Shown here: piece after piece, positions 29,012 through 63,540 of the stretch | Numbering within the stretch: the stretch's first letter is position 1 | Layout of the letters: every line of letters begins with the position of its first letter | Source of the DNA: Amia ocellicauda | Taxonomy: Eukaryota; Chordata; Actinopteri; Amiiformes; Amiidae | Direction: 5' to 3' | Length of the DNA stretch: 64,000 bases | NCBI RefSeq assembly: GCF_036373705.1 | Contig: NC_089869.1 | Location: forward strand, 10,861,676-10,925,675 | Position numbers and translations under genes: made by a program | Notes under the pieces: model-generated | Told to the model about the DNA's origin: nothing | The model's database searches: none | Seen by the model: the letters and a program-made list of their open reading frames with translations, nothing else

Positions 29012-31887
29012 TTAACCCAACAGGTTCTTGCCAAAATCGAGGGCCTTGCCCATGGCATTCTCCGCCTTCTTCCCAGCAGGTTCAGGCTGTTTAGCAGCGT
29101 CTGGAGGGACAAAGGAAGACATGTATGAGCCAAGTGTGCTACTCCATTCTCTTCACTGCAGCTGAGGAACGGCTGGTCAAACATCTCGACAGAGTCACTG
29201 GTTGTGCAAATTAATCCACAGTCTATGGTGGACCGGTTATATACACTCACCTAAAGGATTATTAGGAACACCATGCTAATACTGTGTTTGACTCCCTTTC
29301 GCCTTCAGAACTGCCTTAATTCTACGTGGTATTGATTCAACAAGGTGCTGAAAGCATTCTTTAGAAATGTTGGCCCATATTGATAGGATAGCATCTTGCA
29401 GTTGATGGAGATTTGTGGGATGCACATCCAGGGCACGAAGCTCCCGTTCCACCACATCCCAAAGATGCTCTATTGGGTTGAGATCTGGTGACTGTGGGGG
29501 CCAGTTTAGTACAGTGAACTCATTGTCATGTTCAAGAAACCAATTTGAAATGATTCGACCTTTGTGACATAGTGCATTATCCTGCTGGAAGTAGCCATCA
29601 GAGGATGGGTACATGGTGGTCATAAAGGGATGGACATGGTCAGAAACAATGCTCAGGTAGGCCGTGGCATTTAAACGATGCCCAATTGGCACTAAGGGGC
29701 CTAAAGTGTGCCAAGAAAACATCCCCCACACCATTACACCACCACCACCAGCCTGCACAGTGGTAACAAGGCATGATGGATCCATGTTCTCATTCTGTTT
29801 ACGCCAAATTCTGACTCTACCATCTGAATGTCTCAACAGAAATCGAGACTCATCAGAGCAGGCAACATTTTTCCAGTCTTCAACTGTCCAATTTTGGTGA
29901 GCTTGTGCAAATTGTAGCCTCTTTTTCCTATTTGTAGTGGAGATGAGTGGTACCCGGTGGGCTCTTCTGCTGTTGTAGCCCATCCGCCTCAAGGTTGTAC
30001 GTGTTGTGGCTTCACAAATGCTTTGCTGCATACCTCGGTTGTAACGAGTGGTTATTTCAGTCAAAGTTGCTCTGCTATCAGCTTGAATCAGTCGGCCCAT
30101 TCTCCTCTGACCTCTAGCATCAACAAGGCATTTTCGCCCACAGGACTGCCGCATTCTGGATGTTTTTCCCTTTTCACACCATTCTTTGTAAACCCTAGAA
30201 ATGGTTGTGTGTGAAAATCCCAGTAACTGAGCAGATTGTGAAATACTCAGACCGGCCCGTCTGGCACCAACAACCATGCCACGCTCAAAATTGCTTAAAT
30301 CACCTTTCTTTCCCATTCAGACATTCAGTTTGGAGTTCAGGAGATTGTCTTGACCAGGACAACACCCCTAAATGCATTGAAGCAACTGACATGTGATTGG
30401 TAGGTTAGATAATTGCATGAATGAGAAATTGAATAGGTGTTCCTAATAATCCTTTAGGTGAGTGTATGTTGTTCAGGTTTGTTTTCATATGCATTCTGGT
30501 CAGAAAAGATTGGGTGCTTCCCCCCCACCTCCTAAAATAATACCCTGTTCTGAATAGGTACAAACATTGTAGTAGAGTTAGTTTACTATACAGATTCAGC
30601 ACTAGGTTTTTGTTTGGCTTAAAAAAAAGGTTTCTGCTTTGATTGGGAGGAAATGCAATCTTAATTTTATAGCAGTCAGAGCAATGGGGAATGAGTGGAA
30701 TCATAAATCGATCATTTGAACACATTTATAATGGGCTTCTTTCTGACAGACTGTGTATGACGTCTCCAATGCAAAACGTGAGCGGAGTGTGAGAGAAACG
30801 CAGAGAGGTGAGTTACCTTGCGCCTTATCCTTATTGCCTCCAATAAGCGTGCTCACTTTCTGTTTGGCCGTTCCAGCTGCAAGACACACAGGGAAAAAGC
30901 AGTGTGTCACAGAAGCATGTATTTAAATAGTTCACACATAAACACAGCCCCAGTTCCCCCAATACAAACTGAATAAACATGGATTAATCACAACTGGAGA
31001 CAATATCCCCATGATGGCAAATACGTTTTTTCTTTACATGTTTAATCCTGTAATGAATGACCCTGCATTCAAACATAAAACACCATTAGAATGTCAGTCA
31101 TTTGTTGATATTGGAGGACTGTGTTTATACGAGCAACAAAACAGACATTCACATGCACACGAAATGTACGCACAAGCCTTAATATAACTCAAAAATAAAA
31201 TAAAACTAACCAAAATATTATTTCCAGAACTGTAAAATGTATCATTTATATATAGTAGTTATTTTTCCTGGATTATCTTGAACATTTCAGAGGAGAAAAC
31301 CATGACCGCAGTGAAAAAACTTTACTACAGATCCCAACAGAACTAGGAACTATATAAAGTCTAAATATATTGGGTGCATAATAATTTAAAAAATGCAGAA
31401 CCAAAATATTATGTACAAAAAAAAAAAGTATTTTAGTCCACTGACCTGTTTACAGACAGTCACACTAATATATTTTTTAAATAAACCTGAGTGAAAAGTA
31501 CGTTAGTAGTTCATTACTGCCATTCAAAGCCTAAAATAATTAAATATTCTATTTATTGTTTGCACTAATGGACCTTTTTAGAGATTTCTTTTGTGCAAAA
31601 CAGTCTAATTTAAATAAAGCAGAGGAGTATCTTGAACCCTGAGAACAATGACCAAAAGTGACTACAGATCCTAACAGTTCAATGATATTTACAGTCCTCA
31701 TTCGCTCACACCAGTCCCCTGCCTTGCTTAGAAAGCAGGACAACAACATATTTTCAAAGCAGCATCTTTTCTTTTTCTTTTCTTTTCTGCATGTAATTTC
31801 AGCTGCAGTTTATCTAAAGTACTCACCAGCCTGCTCAATCACTTCATTTGCCTTGGTCTGAATAAAAGCAGATCCCATCTTATCCAT
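29012..31887 (-). CDS. Small Lys/Ala-rich 69-residue protein, copy A (ADIRF/FAM25-like by position)
   Basis: Three coding exons on the minus strand: 31827-31887, 30817-30876 and 29012-29100. They join in phase with AG/GT borders (donors GTGAGT and GTAACT). The product starts MDKMGSAFIQTKANEVIEQA, continues through TAKQKVSTLIGGNKDKAQD and ends KALDFGKNLLG. It has no signal peptide or membrane segment and looks like an amphipathic helix, comparable in size to ADIRF (76 residues in human) and FAM25. I cannot recall a sequence match strong enough to give a symbol. The position between GLUD1 and SNCG and the orientation agree with ADIRF or FAM25. Intron 2 carries a same-strand Tc1/mariner element. 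A T-rich TTTATT cluster at 28685-28705 (AATAAA on the minus strand) is the likely polyadenylation region. The function is unknown from sequence. Confidence 0.75.
29244..30464 (-). mobile_element. Full-length Tc1/mariner element, DD36E type, copy 1
   Basis: A 1,221 bp element flanked by TA target duplications (29242-29243 and 30465-30466). Its 29 bp terminal inverted repeats are perfect (CACTCACCTAAAGGATTATT, then AGGAACACC). It contains a single transposase frame. It sits in intron 2 of the copy A gene. The paralogous site in copy B (about 33934-33950) is empty and reads straight through a single TA, so the insertion came after the duplication. Confidence 0.95.
29276..30316 (-). CDS. Tc1/mariner transposase, 346 aa, catalytic triad kept
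   Basis: Cut-and-paste DNA transposase. An N-terminal paired-like helix-turn-helix region (about 1-110, with GLSISQSAQLLGFSHTTISR) recognises the terminal repeats and is followed by a DDE catalytic domain. The three acidic residues are Asp in CSDESRF, Asp in FQQDNALCH and Glu in DLNPIEHLWD. Thirty-six residues separate the second Asp from Glu, so this is DD36E, as described for the Incomer family, rather than the common DD34E of Tc1. The frame is uninterrupted. Two changes near the active site (Cys for Trp before the first Asp, Leu for Pro after the second) are private to this copy and may reduce activity. Confidence 0.92.
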   Translation of the reverse strand: MGKKGDLSNFERGMVVGARRAGLSISQSAQLLGFSHTTISRVYKEWCEKGKTSRMRQSCGRKCLVDARGQRRMGRLIQADSRATLTEITTRYNRGMQQSICEATTRTTLRRMGYNSRRAHRVPLISTTNRKKRLQFAQAHQNWTVEDWKNVACSDESRFLLRHSDGRVRIWRKQNENMDPSCLVTTVQAGGGGVMVWGMFSWHTLGPLVPIGHRLNATAYLSIVSDHVHPFMTTMYPSSDGYFQQDNALCHKGRIISNWFLEHDNEFTVLNWPPQSPDLNPIEHLWDVVERELRALDVHPTNLHQLQDAILSIWANISKECFQHLVESIPRRIKAVLKAKGSQTQY

Positions 31888-56900: not shown

Positions 56901-58639
56901 GGGATGAGCTGTGACATCAGCACAATCTTTCTCTCATCCTACACCCACACCGCCCTACCTCTCCCCGGTCCCTTCAACACGCTGGCGAAATCAATACCTG
57001 GTCTATAATTCATTCTGCTAGAGTAAGTCTGGCAACCACCATCTCCAAGTCAATAAAAAAGACAAAAAGGTAAAGACACTGGCCTTTTTATATATAGTGT
57101 CCTGGAAAGGTGATGTGATTCTGAACTACCAGAAAGGAAAAATCGCAACGCAGTCTCTACACTGGCTCTAGCCTGTACTGCTCTCGGCTGTGGCTGCTTT
57201 GAATGCAGCACCAGAGAACTTTGCACCAAGGGGGGAAGAAAAAGCTGCCATGTCACATGAACTTGGACAGCAAGAGAATGAGCTTACAGGAAAGTCTCTA
57301 ACAAGAAGTGTGCAGGAAACTATTACACTCAGCACCAATGCCAATCGAATCAAATAAAACAATGAATAATAATGGTAATAACATAACATACCTCAAGGAC
57401 CAGGAAAACAAATCCAAGATCAGTTGGGTCTGCTTGATGTTTGCATGCTATCTAGATTCATTCCCTGAGCTCTGTGGACAGTGGGATGACACAATGTGTA
57501 GCTGCCAAAATATTTCATTCAAGCACTATCAACACTACACAAGAGTGGATCAATCCACGTAGCAATCGCACACGTTAAGTGCAGCTGGCACGAATTTGGT
57601 TGGAAAGCCATCTTAGCTGTGGATGCAGTCCAAATAATGCCCAATTACAGGATCAGTATTTCAAAATAACAAGTCTTTAAAGAATTTTAAGAATTATCGG
57701 CTATAACCCAGCAAGAGCTGCAAGCGTCACTGAAAACTTGATTGTGGTTGCTTTTATTCTACAGTTTCACTTAATTGTTTTGCTCATACTCATCAAGTTA
57801 ATCACGTTTAATCGCCTGCTACAGGTAGAATTACTTATATTTACTGGAAGTAATTCTGAATACAGTATATCGAATCGGGAATTTATTATATTTATACAAG
57901 ATATTTTTCTAAAATTGTCAGCGGAAAAACAAAATTAAACAATTAAAAAATGTAAAGGAGACTGTTTTTTTATTCTGTATTGGTCATTTAAGAGAAGGAT
58001 CTCACGACCACCTCAGGATGCCAGCAAGGTCAGCTGAAGATGCTGGAGCAACGATCGCAGAAGGCGTTGACAGTCAGCGAGGAATGGCATTACAATTTAT
58101 TTTCATACATGAAAACTAAACTACATGTGGATCCAGTTGTTTGAGCTACAGATATGGAAGAAACATTGAAAAGAAGTTTGACCTGATGTATTATTTCAAA
58201 AGAATTTAGACACCAAGTATAGGTAGGAAATTTAATTCTCAGAGACGCAAAGATCTGAAAGTACAATTTTGAATACAGCAGTCCTTACTGTAAATAGTCT
58301 GTGCTTGTAATGTTCTTTATTTTTGTCATCTTTTAGCTGACCTAATAAGACTATAGACTGAATGTGCAATATACACCATTTCTTATTTACTCAGAAATGG
58401 ACACACAAGTTTCCCCACAGTACATGAATTTTTACGAAAAAGAAATGTGCAAAATTAACACTAAACACTCGCAGGTTTCAACAATTTTTTGTTTTGTTCC
58501 CCTGTCCCACAATGATGTAGAAGCTGGATTTATAGTGCTGTGTTTGTGGCCGGGGTGTGTGGCAGCATGTTAAAGCAGAACTGCCGATTTTCTGCTGTAT
58601 GTATCTTGCTGGTGCTGTGTTTTAGGCAGAGAAGTGAGC
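53946..58639. other. Intergenic region upstream of SNCG
   Basis: Human MMRN2 lies head to head with SNCG, but I found no EMI-domain or signal-peptide exon here on the + strand. A GC-rich, proline-coding-looking stretch at 56551-56883 has no splice support. A CT microsatellite lies at about 56037-56078. The rest is AT-rich. Confidence 0.45.
54217..54334. mobile_element. Small piggyBac-like MITE
   Basis: TTAACCCTTAAATGCGGG on the left pairs with GCATTTAAGGGGTTCAA on the right. It has the same CCCTT-type terminus and TTAA-like target as the element at 45039-45150, but a different core. Confidence 0.5.
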
Positions 58640-60180
58640 CGTGTGAAGTTGAAGATCATGGAGGGAAAAGGGTGTTAGTCCCCGGTAGCTCACTGCTGTG
58701 GTCACTGGCCGCAGGTTGTGGGTTCAAAACTGGGGTGACCTGCTGTCTTTTCAAGATGTTATTGTTTGTGTGCTGAGGGGGAAGTGGTAGGCTGATATAC
58801 CAGATCTCTGAACATGTGGAAGAGGAGCTTTTTGGCTTATGTGGAGTGCTGGTCTTAAAGCTAGCAGGACTTGAGTTCAAATTGAGGTTGTGGTGCTAGT
58901 GCCACAGGGGGCAAACGTGAGTTTGATATTCAAGATCATGAATCACATTTGAAGTCAATATTTTATAGACCCACTGCATTGCTGACTGTTCAGAAAGCTG
59001 GAAGGCTATATGTTCAAATCCTGGTTCAGTTGTTGTCATTTGAAATTGTATTTGTTCTGTGCTACTAATGCTTTGTTTTACTGCCACAGGGGGCAGTGAG
59101 GCAGATATACCAGATGATTGAGGTAATAGACAAGTCCTTGCCTTAGAGTTAGTAGAACATGGAGGTTAGCCAGAGAGGGCAGTGTATTGAAGATATTCAA
59201 GCAACCAACCAACCATGTAGTCCTTTTTGCATGAAATCTTGCAGGACCTGGGTTTGAAGCCAGGTGCTGTATTTTTCTTCCATGAATCTGTTGTTTGTGC
59301 TTTGATTTGTTGGCTGTGCAGTGGATATAGCAGATCTTCTAACACCTATAAGTAAATACCTTTGTGTCTCACCATGTAGAGTGCTGGTCTTAAAACTAAT
59401 AAGTCCTCAATTAAAATCTTGGTGGAGCACCTGTTTTCTAAAGATCTGTTACTTGTTTATTGTTTTAGTGCAGGGGGGTGAGTGAGGTTGATATACTAGA
59501 TCTTTGAGCAGGTAACTGGACAAGCCTTTGTGGCTCACTACTTGCCTTAAAGCTGGGGGGGCTTGATATACAAGAGAGTGAGTATGAAGTTCTCTGTGGC
59601 TCACTTCATGCCATGTTGTTCTAGATGCTAACAGGACCTAGGTTCAAATCCTGGTGTAGGATGTGTCTCTGGAAAATCTGTTGCTTGTGTATTGTTTGTG
59701 GTGTGTTTTAGCCCCAGAGGGGGTAGTGTGAGGTTGATAGACCTGAACTTTGATCCTCTGAACGGTGAGTCCTTTGTGGCTCACTGCATGGAGTGCTGGT
59801 GTAGATGCTGCAAGACTTGGGATCAAATCCTGGTGCAGGTCCTGTTCTTTGAAAATCTGTTGATTATGTATTGTGTTTTGTGGGCAGTGTGAGGTTGAAA
59901 TACCTGAACTTTGATACTTTAACAGTTGAGTTCTTTGTGGCTTGCAGCATGGCGTGCTGTCCTAGATGTACTAAGGATCTGAGTTCAAATCCTGGTTGAA
60001 GAAATAAACCTGTTGTTTGTGATGTTGTTAGTGCCAGAGGGGGCAGTGCAAGGTTGATATACCTGAACTTTGATCCTCTAAAAGGTGAGTCCTTTGTGGC
60101 TCACTGCATGGAGTGCTGGTCTAGAAGCTAAGAGGATCATTGTTCAAATCCTGGCTGAGGAGTCTGCTGATGAGGTAAGT
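58640..60180 (+). repeat. Tandem array of tRNA-like units, + oriented arm
   Basis: About ten degenerate units are spaced roughly 145-240 bp apart, settling to 157-167 bp near the centre. Each has an A-box-like TGGCTCACTGCATGGAGTGC and, about 40 bp on, a B-box-like GGTTCAAATCC. The better units (near 59600, 59767, 59928 and 60085) can fold as a cloverleaf: acceptor-like TCCT...AGGA, a five-pair T stem around TTCAAAT. The spacer between them is also conserved, with GTGCCAGAGGGGGCAGTG and ATACCTGAACTTTGAT. These look like tandem tRNA-derived SINE heads or a satellite made from one. Confidence 0.8.
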
Positions 60181-60576
60181 ACATAATACCAACCTTTGTT
60201 AAGAGTACTAAGCATAGATAGTGGGGGGGGTGTATGGATGAGAGGTAGGATAAGATACCTAGGCAACATGAGAGGGTAGGGAATTGAGAGTGGGGTGGGC
60301 CAGAAAAGGATAATAGCTGAAGTGAGAAATGGTTAAGCTGAACAAAAGGAGAGAGAACATTTTTATATCACATTCTAGCTCACCCTTCCACCCCTCTCCC
60401 ACAGCTTAGCCTACACTTCTACTGTCTTGTCTTCCAAGCCAATTCCAGCCCACCCCTCAACTGTCCTCTTCATCTAGTCCAGATGTCTCCACCATTTACT
60501 CTTCCCCTCATCTAGCTCTCTACCAACCCAACCCCTGGTATCTACACATAGTACAGTTAACATTGTATATCTTAAT
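60181..60576. repeat. Centre of the palindrome
   Basis: The two halves around about 60380 remain weakly inverted relative to each other (GTACTAAGCATAGATA near 60205; its counterpart, inverted, near 60540-60555). They are more diverged than the arms. No tRNA-like unit lies here. Confidence 0.5.
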
Positions 60577-61000
60577 GTACTTACCTCAACAGCATGCTCC
60601 TCAGCCTGGATTTGAACCCATCTCCTTCTACCTGCCAGACCAGCACTCCATGCAGTGAGCCACAAAGGACTCAGTGTTAACTTGGTCAAAGTTCAGGTAT
60701 ATCAACCTTACACTGTCCCCTTTGACACTAAAATACCACAAACAATATATTTTCAGAAGGCCCACCAACAGGATTTGAACCCAGATCCTCTCAGTTTCCA
60801 GGCAAGCACTTCATTCAGTGAGCCACACAAGCATCTACTATTACATTCTCAAATATCTGGTATATCACCCTCACCCTGCCCTCTCCAGCACTAAAACAAG
60901 ACACAAACAACAGATCTCCAAAAGACAGGGGCTCCACCAAGATGCAAACTTTGAGACTAGCACTCTGCATGGTGAGCCACAAAGGACTTCATGTTTGAAG
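60577..61000 (-). repeat. Tandem array of tRNA-like units, - oriented arm
   Basis: Three units of the same family on the minus strand (B boxes near 60610, 60775 and, weaker, 60945; A-box-like GTGAGCCACA near 60655, 60820 and 60980). They are about 160 bp apart and mirror the + arm across a centre at about 60380. Confidence 0.8.
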
Positions 61001-61271
61001 GACAGCTGTTTGAAGATCAATGATGATGCTCTGAGGAAGACCAATGAGTCAAAACACATAAACATCATATTGTTCTTAGCCCCCAAATGTTTAATATATC
61101 AAAAATGTTTTAATGACATCAATGACTATGGACTATTTACAGGCGGGATCTGCTGTCTAGCTTTCCAGTGGCTCTTCCAGAGGGTAATTATTTTTCTACA
61201 TATTCCCTGGGACAAAGCATCCTACATTTAAAGTCTATTGTTAAAATGTTGTGTTATTTTATAACTAAACT

Positions 61272-61302
61272 ATATTTATATATATATATATATATATATA
61301 TA
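61272..61302. repeat. (TA)n microsatellite
   Basis: TA run directly abutting the Tc1/mariner copy at 61303; the element used one of these TA dinucleotides as target. Confidence 0.9.
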
Positions 61303-62523
61303 CACTCACCTAAAGGATTATTAGGAACACCTGTTCAATTTCCCATTAATGCAATTATCTAACCAACCAATCACATGGCAGTTGCTTCAATGCATTTAGG
61401 GGTGTGCTCCTGGTCAAGACAATCTCCTGAACTCCAAACTGAATGTCTGAATGGGAAAGAAAGGTGATTTAAGCAATTTTGAGCGTGGCATGGTTGTTGG
61501 TGCCAGATGGGCCGGTCTGAGTATTTCACAATCTGCTCAGTTACTGGGATTTTCACGCACAACCATTTCTAGGGTTTACAAAGAATGGTGTGAAAAGGGA
61601 AAAACATCCAGTATGCGGCAGTCCTGTGGGCGAAAATGCCTTGTTGATGCTAGAGGTCAGAGGAGAATGGGCCGACTGATTCAAGCTGATAGAAGAGCAA
61701 CTTTGACTGAAATAACCACTCGTTACAACCGAGGTATGCAGCAAAGCATTTGTGAAGCCACAACACGTACAACCTTGAGGCGGATGGGCTACAACAGCAG
61801 AAGACCCCACCGGGTACCACTCATCTCCACTACAAATAGGAAAAAGAGGCTACAATTTGCACAAGCTCACCAAAATTGGACAGTTGAAGACTGGAAAAAT
61901 GTTGCCTGGTCTGATGAGTCTCGATTTCTGTTGAGACATTCAGATGGTAGAGTCAGAATTTGGCGTAAACAGAATGAGAACATGGATCCATCATGCCTTG
62001 TTACCACTGTGCAGGCTGGTGGTGGTGGTGTAATGGTGTGGGGGATGTTTTCTTGGCACACTTTAGGCCCCTTAGTGCCAATTGGGCATCGTTTAAATGC
62101 CACGGCCTACCTGAGCATTGTTTCTGACCATGTCCATCCCTTTATGACCACCATGTACCCATCCTCTGATGGCTACTTCCAGCAGGATAATGCACCATGT
62201 CACAAAGGTCGAATCATTTCAAATTGGTTTCTTGAACATGACAATGAGTTCACTGTACTAAACTGGCCCCCACAGTCACCAGATCTCAACCCAATAGTGC
62301 ATCTTTGGGATGTGGTGGAACGGGAGCTTCGTGCCCTGGATGTGCATCCCACAAATCTCCATCAACTGCAAGATGCTATCCTATCAATATGGGCCAACAT
62401 TTCTAAAGAATGCTTTCAGCACCTTGTTGAATCAATGCCACGTAGAATTAAGGCAGTTCTGAAGGCGAAAGGGGGTCAAACACAGTATTAGTATGGTGTT
62501 CCTAATAATCCTTTAGGTGAGTG
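61303..62523 (+). mobile_element. Full-length Tc1/mariner element, DD36E type, copy 2
   Basis: 1,221 bp, the same length and terminal inverted repeats as the copy at 29244-30464, flanked by TA (61301-61302 and 62524-62525). The two copies are closely similar (about 97 percent at protein level by my count). Confidence 0.95.
61451..62491 (+). CDS. Tc1/mariner transposase, 346 aa, catalytic Glu replaced by Val
   Basis: Uninterrupted transposase frame with the same architecture as the 29 kb copy. The N-terminal helix-turn-helix region, WSDESRF and FQQDNAPCH are normal. The third catalytic position reads DLNPIVHLWD: the codon at about 62297-62299 is GTG (Val) instead of GAG (Glu). Loss of this metal-binding residue should abolish catalysis even though the frame is open. 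It differs from the other copy at about ten residues, each copy having its own private changes. Confidence 0.92.
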   Translation: MGKKGDLSNFERGMVVGARWAGLSISQSAQLLGFSRTTISRVYKEWCEKGKTSSMRQSCGRKCLVDARGQRRMGRLIQADRRATLTEITTRYNRGMQQSICEATTRTTLRRMGYNSRRPHRVPLISTTNRKKRLQFAQAHQNWTVEDWKNVAWSDESRFLLRHSDGRVRIWRKQNENMDPSCLVTTVQAGGGGVMVWGMFSWHTLGPLVPIGHRLNATAYLSIVSDHVHPFMTTMYPSSDGYFQQDNAPCHKGRIISNWFLEHDNEFTVLNWPPQSPDLNPIVHLWDVVERELRALDVHPTNLHQLQDAILSIWANISKECFQHLVESMPRRIKAVLKAKGGQTQY

Positions 62524-62525
62524 TA

Positions 62526-63540
62526 TATGTACTACTAAATCAAAAAACTGAACAAATCATTCAATTAAATACATTATTATGAGCAACACTCTGTTGGGAA
62601 AATCCCCTAAATCATGGAATGTCTATTACATTATTCATTAGTTATTCATTGGTTTAAGTTCAGTGCTACAAGATGGACTTTACCAAAAGTTTAACAGGTA
62701 CAGTATGCAAAACCCTCACTGGACAGAATGCCACAGATGAAAATATGTCTAAGCCTGTAGTTCAGTGCTTTTGACAGAGGGGGGGGGGGGGTCATAAGGC
62801 CAGGGCCCCCAAATCCCAGGCTAATGTGCAAAAACAATACACTGGACAGTGACTGAGATTTAAAAAGGACTGAGGATAAGGACTTAAACATGCCTAAACA
62901 GCTCAAAGAGTATATTGGTATTAATTGAAATGTCTTTATTCATTATTTGTATAAATTCTATATTTATATTGTTTTATTTAATAATGAATACTGAAATTAT
63001 CAGTACATTTAATTGGTTCAAGTGATAGTGTATACAATAAATGAATGTTAATAAAATTATTCTTTAAAAAAATAAGTTTTGTTGAAGTATTGCTCATTTA
63101 TTTAACATACTGTAAAGAGCGTTACCTACATGCCTACTGGGTTTATATTTCAAAATCCTAGAGTCTACATTGAAATAGGACACCTCCTTAAAGCACTGTT
63201 TACTGTGTACATTATGTATAGCTTTTGTGTTTACATTGTGCCTAGCTTTCTTTTATAGCTTGTGTTTTTATGATGTGTAATGTTTTAGTTATTTTTAAAA
63301 TAATTATTGATTTGTGCTTGGATAAAGTAATATTCTCAATAACATTATAATTATAATACCTGATGTCACAGATCTATAGGGAGTGAAATAGGTGTTGTAT
63401 TGGACTTGGGTCAGATTAGGGGTATATAAAAGGGGCATATATAAAAGCTTATCGGAATTGGGCCAGTACTGGGTAATAAAGTATTGATGAGCCTGCCTGA
63501 ACTGGACCAGCACTGTCCCATATGTCTGTGTTCAATATTT
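62526..63540. other. AT-rich gene-free stretch
   Basis: No exon recognised. A run of G lies at 62779-62791. Low-complexity A/T occurs at 62935-63075 and 63240-63360. Confidence 0.5.

Follow-up and report, generated by a model that had tools for sequence, protein, structure and literature searches.

What is the palindromic array of tRNA-like units in this stretch of Amia ocellicauda DNA? We propose that the array, which lies in the 64,000-nucleotide stretch that was analysed (the window), forms the inner part of a DNA transposon that is old, non-autonomous and foldback-like in anatomy, and that the palindrome was already present in the ancestral element; we put the probability of this reading at roughly 0.7. 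The element consists of a left module (L), inward-facing tRNA-derived units, a short centre with purine/pyrimidine asymmetry, the inverted array, and a right module (R), and it is bounded by imperfect 31-bp terminal inverted repeats. The reading as a transposon rests on the convergent order of the units in 20 of 21 clusters, the consistent flanking of the array by L and R, the sharp right ends (14 of 14 read), and the matching tips.

The array and its units

An iterated profile search from a three-unit seed recovered 13 units in about 58649-61024, ten on the + strand and then three on the - strand, with per-unit E values of 9e-10 to 2e-35 in the last profile round (Table 1), and found no further unit at E ≤ 1e-3 elsewhere in the 64-kb window. 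The number and orientation of the units given by an earlier sequence-only reading of this DNA are thereby confirmed. That reading placed the centre of a large inverted repeat near 60380, and the refined profile gives a centre of 417 nt with its midpoint at 60379. Likewise, the tandem period of about 160 bp that it reported is the spacing of the inner + units, the units following one another at about 160-170 bp overall. The inverted symmetry that it expected a self-comparison to reveal is seen as 28 inverted pairs in 58000-61300 by repeat detection; the longest among the 25 pairs listed, 60028-60227 / 60532-60731, has 200-nt arms that are 79% complementary.

Table 1. Coordinates of the array, its carrier element and the nested transposon in the window
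Feature	Positions	Strand	Basis or remark
Left module (L)	57552..58587	+	homology to other copies, 71-89%
Patch shared with element copy L032 (C26:11.447 Mb)	58586..59162	+	577 nt, 99.3% identical
Unit +10, outermost, decayed	58649..58778	+	profile match
Unit +9	58789..58912	+	profile match
Unit +8	58923..59094	+	profile match
Unit +7	59186..59313	+	profile match
Unit +6	59321..59477	+	profile match
Unit +5, partial	59485..59564	+	profile match
Unit +4	59564..59723	+	profile match
Unit +3	59731..59875	+	profile match
Unit +2	59892..60044	+	profile match
Unit +1, ends at model position 123, just beyond the tRNA-like part	60051..60170	+	profile match
Palindrome centre	60171..60587		left half purine 0.68, right half 0.31
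Unit -1, mirror of unit +1 at 81.5% identity	60588..60708	-	profile match
Unit -2	60717..60871	-	profile match
Unit -3	60878..61018	-	profile match
Tc1-like transposon between array and R; ends approximate, by eye	61296..62527	+	inverted ends, Pfam
Right module (R)	62531..63533	+	homology to other copies; terminal part absent in window copy

Is the unit a tRNA gene? The family consensus, 163 profile positions long, forms a cloverleaf at positions 40-111 with 20 of 21 pairs, a result matched by 0 of 20,000 shuffles, and ARAGORN reports a similar 74-nt fold in the consensus at relaxed thresholds only. Run at default settings on the window and on 23 loci, ARAGORN makes 0 calls; among the Rfam matches, the tRNA model is absent both for the window array at E ≤ 10 and for ten other clusters at E ≤ 1. 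In single units, cloverleaf pairing shows no excess in the D and T stems (94 and 136 of 300 column shuffles are as good) and lies slightly above the 300 column shuffles in the acceptor stem (11 as good) and the anticodon stem (2). The earlier claim that several units can fold as a cloverleaf therefore holds for the consensus and not for single units; by the covariance score that was suggested for checking that claim, single units do no better than chance, whereas the consensus does. We read the unit as tRNA-derived and not as a tRNA gene, since the consensus forms 20 of 21 pairs and the single units are decayed and carry no tRNA score.

We rejected the window as a site of real tRNA genes or of a known RNA family: there is no match at gathering score in the window, no ARAGORN call, and no tRNA match at relaxed E. 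Four weak Rfam matches to the window array, with E between 0.36 and 3.9, all fall below gathering, as do a MIR2863 match in locus L031 and an HIV-1_SL3 match in locus L037, which lie outside the units and are read as chance or generic hairpins. We note that the MIR2863-like hairpin overlaps a separate nested inverted and direct repeat at 4783-5220 of L031, outside the array, which is probably another repeat element.

Dispersed clusters in the genome

A search of the window's own genome (988 Mb, 385 contigs) with the unit gave at least 87 matches in at least 24 loci, 40 of 108 first-look candidates having been scored. Twenty of the 24 loci were taken at 5.5-6.5 kb, single-match places included, and with the window these make 21 sequences. 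In 20 of the 21 clusters read, the window included, + units are followed by - units without interleaving; the exception, L050, has - units only within the stretch read. Because L042 is a 99.9% copy of L041, 19 of the 20 convergent clusters are independent. The remaining unit loci are two on C27 (11.03 and 11.07 Mb) with + and then - matches, and C22:16702654 with a single match. Among four further loci reached via L or R, that on C22 (16.12 Mb) is convergent, C10b and C6 have + units only, and C5b has no unit within the 3.3 kb covered. In 18 of the 20 convergent clusters the innermost units end at model positions 101-136 on both sides, a little beyond the tRNA-like part (the exceptions are L037 and L049).

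The sequence-only reading had asked whether one unit is also dispersed in the same genome. It is, as clusters (all of the 21 loci read of the 24) rather than as solitary copies, and the suggestion of a SINE head that is merely tandem here is not borne out, the palindrome lying inside a larger dispersed element.

Merging the L, R and unit matches yields at least 63 loci, 7 of which have all three, 15 two and 41 one. Their distribution over the chromosomes is uneven: C5 has 21 of the 63 listed loci, 20 within its first 16 Mb, C27 has 8 (four of them from the tandem duplication described below), C23 and C29 have 6 each, and C8, C11-C21 and C24 have none among the matches listed. Local hopping or regional retention may account for the crowding; the 21 loci on C5 are not what plain random insertion would give, and this counts against the reading as a transposon. 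Similarly, many listed loci have L only (19 of 63) or R only (15 of 63) at the sensitivity used, and this too weighs against it. On C27, four copies stand about 46-53 kb apart (10922602, 10971798, 11025069 and 11071002), and the two that were compared are 99.9% identical over 6 kb; we interpret the four as the product of a recent segmental duplication in tandem, in which a single copy of the element was carried along.

The carrier element

L and R are shared outside the arrays and flank the array in consistent order among the dispersed copies. Genome searches returned at least 46 matches with positions 57552-58491 of the window and at least 53 with R of L038, the query itself included in each case, and 10 matches with the L end. 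No coding frame was recognised by eye in L, for which frames were listed for the window only, or in R, for which the window and four other copies were inspected. An autonomous relative or a transposase was likewise not found in the frames inspected by eye (R of the window and four copies, L of the window), which counts against the reading as a transposon.

The right ends are sharp. From the 53 matches, 14 whose alignment extends to the query end, or almost so, were selected and read; every one breaks off at a common motif, GTCTGGG in 10 and a close variant in 4, and the flanks beyond them are unrelated (mean 28%, maximum 53% identity over 40 nt). A Helitron-type end, looked for by eye, was dropped because the G after CTGG is conserved. 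On the left side, a tip like CATACAGCAGGTGG is kept in only 9 of the 14 ends read, a further count against the transposon; the motif is absent in L074, L075, L077, L080 and L085, the last of these being the window itself, where about 45-50 bp of the left end known from other copies is missing or diverged and neither tip is present. The left and right tips form an imperfect 31-bp terminal inverted repeat with 20 of 31 positions matching (P 4e-6; equalled in 1 of 200,000 shuffles); since the ends were picked by eye from alignments, this P value is optimistic. Beyond these tips, a self-comparison of the 21 stretches, most with partial L and R, gave no inverted match of L to R. Also counted against the transposon is that no target-site duplication was found in the four old copies with both ends read, where lengths of 2-10 were tried with ends shifted by up to 3 and a duplication was kept only if exact over at least 4 nt, or over at least 7 nt with one mismatch.

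Does the unit itself derive from the modules? In 2 of 8 copies, R carries on its reverse strand a match to ATATACCAGATC(T), which lies in the conserved 5' island of the unit, with 3 and 5 of 200 shuffles as good, and the matches to the other 6 R copies are not significant; derivation of the unit from R, or a binding site shared with it, was therefore not retained as an explanation, and the 12-13-nt match may serve as a lead. The best matches between unit and L are weak (11 of 200 shuffles as good for C10b and 5 of 200 for C6), the other three of five not being significant.

The window copy has been interrupted by a Tc1-like transposon with an open reading frame at 61451-62491 (346 aa; Pfam HTH_Tnp_Tc3_2 and DDE_3) and inverted ends at 61295-61331 / 62495-62531. 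A near-identical second copy, also with a 346-aa open frame, lies in the window at 29238-30467, and the element occurs, whole or in part and about 94-99% identical, in L038, L039, L041, L042, L044, L045 and L057, L041 and L042 being duplicates. These near-identical copies in the window and seven other stretches suggest that the Tc1-like element was recently active. Elsewhere in the window are glutamate dehydrogenase domains near 3.5 and 19.6 kb and a synuclein exon on the - strand near 53.4 kb; these neighbours are presumably GLUD1 and SNCG, and with the Tc1-like transposase they give the surroundings a vertebrate, fish-like look.

History of the palindrome

How old is the palindrome relative to its dispersal? 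For unit statistics, L042 was left out and units shorter than 90 nt were dropped, leaving 211 units. Mirror partners, paired by rank from the centre, are closer to each other in 18 of 19 clusters than units otherwise paired across the arms (0.747 versus 0.638, P 3e-5), and units of the same rank at different loci are closer than units of other ranks (about 0.67 versus 0.62). Because of both likenesses, we conclude from the alignments that a palindrome with already different units is older than the dispersal. Within-locus mirror partners exceed the between-locus likeness of same-rank units in 13 of 19 clusters (P 0.006). In the other 6 they are no closer than same-rank units of other loci, and this counts against the proposed reading.

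At L034 (C29:11837000-11843000), the three inner mirror pairs are 100% identical and the fourth 93%, which we interpret as a recent event of arm homogenisation. Similarly, the window and L032 stand 0.53 Mb apart and share the near-identical patch given in Table 1, whereas their other longer aligned pieces are 67-83% alike, with short stretches reaching 90%. Such patterns are expected from gene conversion, both from arm to arm and from copy to copy, and we favour it on account of the identical inner pairs of L034, the 99.3% patch, and the likeness of mirror partners within loci.

The centre has a signature of its own. Purine content is 0.59-0.71 in the left half and 0.28-0.45 in the right half of 16 of 17 centres, L049 being the exception, and the two halves are complementary beyond 100 of 100 shuffles in 14 of 17, the others being L046, L049 and the window, whose halves are not significantly complementary to each other. 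This test left out L042 and the loops shorter than 100 nt of L037 and L044.

Alternative explanations

SINEs are Pol III retroposons, and the array could in principle be a tandem SINE or SINE-derived satellite, that is, a retroposon amplified head to tail and inverted locally. The tRNA-like part, with its B-box-like and more weakly A-box-like elements, is what such an origin would supply, and vertebrate parallels exist: SINE-derived tandem repeats are described in squamates (PMC10702118), and a review table lists tRNA-related satellites for Xenopus and Hydromantes (PMC9659126). Several observations make this explanation unlikely. There is no solitary copy in the 21 of 24 loci read, two more loci have both orientations, and only C22:16702654 gave a single match. 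The units abut, following at about 160-170 bp, and their consensus is without the 3' A-rich or simple tail that is a SINE hallmark. The modules L and R travel with the array, and the units have rank-specific identities instead of satellite-like homogeneity.

Could the copies instead be a family of hairpin-RNA genes, the transcript of each palindrome forming long double-stranded RNA from which small RNAs would silence related sequences? The long hairpin expected from the array by the sequence-only reading can certainly be folded, the inner 704 nt reaching -354 kcal/mol (z -24.7 versus 20 shuffles), and the convergent layout is kept in 20 of the 21 clusters read. R also carries a TATATAAAAG-like, TATA-like stretch near 63420-63450, present in 5 of 8 sequences aligned and possibly a relic promoter, but it is directed away from the array. 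The differences between the arms speak against it. Germ-line transcription of one strand leaves the usual strand mutation bias, and either such transcription or selection on RNA pairing should favour G-U over A-C differences. We compared 20 loci, oriented from L to R where this could be judged (the orientation of L048 could not), and found no such bias: transitions that keep pairing number 345 and those that break it 348 (P 0.94), with 9 loci leaning up, 8 down and 3 tied. L034 alone leans toward G-U (16 versus 5, P 0.027 before correction for 20 loci). Because of the 345 to 348 split, neither selection on pairing nor strand-biased transcription is seen, and arms as low as 67% identity persist. 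We therefore consider hairpin-RNA genes very unlikely. With no G-U bias and with single-unit cloverleaf pairing near that of column shuffles, we conclude from these comparisons that neither the hairpin RNA nor the tRNA fold is under visible constraint, and the RNA roles put forward earlier for the array are not supported. The case shows that events at the DNA level can produce a striking RNA hairpin as a by-product.

Which parts of the unit are conserved? Ranking 153 windows over the 112 full-length units of the 211 places the best conserved windows at unit positions 92-103, the B box (starts 93 and 92 are the top two and start 91 is rank 5). Two further islands, around positions 6-18 and 143-155, are about as conserved, and the A-box window, at 47, comes no higher than rank 59 of 153. 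Between loci the units differ by 0.21 in the B box and by 0.30 in the A box, compared with 0.44 for the remaining tRNA-like positions and 0.37 for those outside the tRNA-like part. With box patterns taken from general knowledge, the B box is found in 113 of 211 units versus 3 of 211 shuffled, the A box in 80 of 211, barely above 63 of 211 shuffled, and both in 50 of 211. Since no window is better conserved than that of the B box, Pol III may use this box; since two other islands are about as conserved, the signal is not special to Pol III. By analogy with known repeated units, such short conserved islands fit candidate protein-binding sites. A CTCF site at the 3' end of the unit (GCCAGAGGGGGC) was considered and dropped: the core pattern, taken from general knowledge and allowing at most 2 mismatches, has no match in the array, and CTCF-like cores in the window are at chance (42 versus 38.4 expected).

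The same conservation, of the B box and not of the cloverleaf, with an inter-locus difference of 0.21 versus 0.44, raises the idea that mirrored clusters of putative TFIIIC-binding B boxes were spread by a foldback-like transposon and that some copies were kept as chromatin boundaries or tethers, a vertebrate counterpart of the inverted-repeat boundaries of fission yeast, where TFIIIC is recruited by the five B boxes of IR-L, without which a reporter shows less than full boundary activity (PMC4502379). We hold this to be very improbable, given the two other conserved islands, the low rank of the A-box window, and a B-box pattern in barely more than half of the units. The fission yeast elements resemble the present arrays as B-box clusters in inverted repeats, but they belong to the mating-type locus and their TFIIIC sites have a tested function, whereas the arrays described here have another origin and scale, and the functional likeness is conjectural (PMC4502379).

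Discussion

How might a transposon with such a core have arisen? In the history that we propose, tandem duplication of a tRNA-derived sequence within a progenitor element built the array, to which an inverted copy was next added, perhaps through fold-back or template-switch synthesis. The whole element would have been spread by a transposase acting in trans, with the repeated units perhaps offering extra protein-binding sites during movement, as has been proposed for Galileo and Tetris. Later, unequal exchange would have altered the number of units, and gene conversion would have homogenised some arms. The element is probably inert now. Its foldback anatomy is partial: large inverted arms of tandem sub-repeats surround a centre in 20 of 21 clusters, but the arms do not reach the ends of the element, because the palindrome is internal and the tips, the only matching ends, are 31 bp long.

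The nearest anatomy that we found in print is that of Tetris and Galileo of Drosophila, as far as their available text describes them. Tetris is an apparently non-autonomous foldback transposon of Drosophila virilis (PMC4079207). Like the element described here, it has a flanking domain, a variable number of tandem repeats on each side (about 220 bp in Tetris), an inner domain, a variable non-coding middle and inverted arms, and it shows variation in unit number and signs of local homogenisation. The differences are equally clear from the same text. The flanking domains of Tetris lie inside its inverted repeat, whereas L and R differ from each other and only the tips of about 31 bp are inverted. 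Between unit and flanking domain, Tetris has 37 bp in common (about 80%), whereas the likeness seen here is the 12-13-nt match of the unit to R in 2 of 8 copies. Target-site duplications can be identified in Tetris, whereas we found none in four copies, and, unlike Tetris, the present units are tRNA-derived and the genome is that of a fish. A role as binding sites has been suggested for the Tetris repeats, similar to Galileo (PMC4079207). Galileo, a member of the P superfamily, likewise has long inverted repeats and, in some subfamilies, internal tandem repeats of varying number (PMC3573991), in which binding sites for the THAP domain of the transposase have been identified (PMC3688188). For Galileo, however, a transposase is known and the long repeats are terminal; in the present element neither has been seen.

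The nearest tRNA- or SINE-related tandem repeats found in print are the squamate SINE-derived satellites and two amphibian satellites, again judged from the text available. The squamate repeats are also tandem units, derived from portions of three named SINE families with a preference for subtelomeres, and the available description mentions no conserved palindrome or transposon ends (PMC10702118). Similarly, Satellite 1 of Xenopus laevis and the salamander Hy/Pol III satellite are given in a review table as vertebrate satellites from the tRNA-related region of SINE-like elements, and those entries mention neither a palindrome nor a carrying DNA transposon (PMC9659126). In the open full-text literature searched, none of the titles and abstract openings listed describes a vertebrate element of this anatomy, though it may be catalogued in Repbase or Dfam.

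Finally, the foldback transposons with tandem-repeat arms that we found in print are from Drosophila, whereas here the genome is that of a vertebrate and the palindrome is kept in at least 20 clusters. With these copies, one genome contains a natural series of long inverted repeats that differ in age. This series allows arm-to-arm gene conversion to be measured directly, and it raises the question of how such palindromes survive replication.
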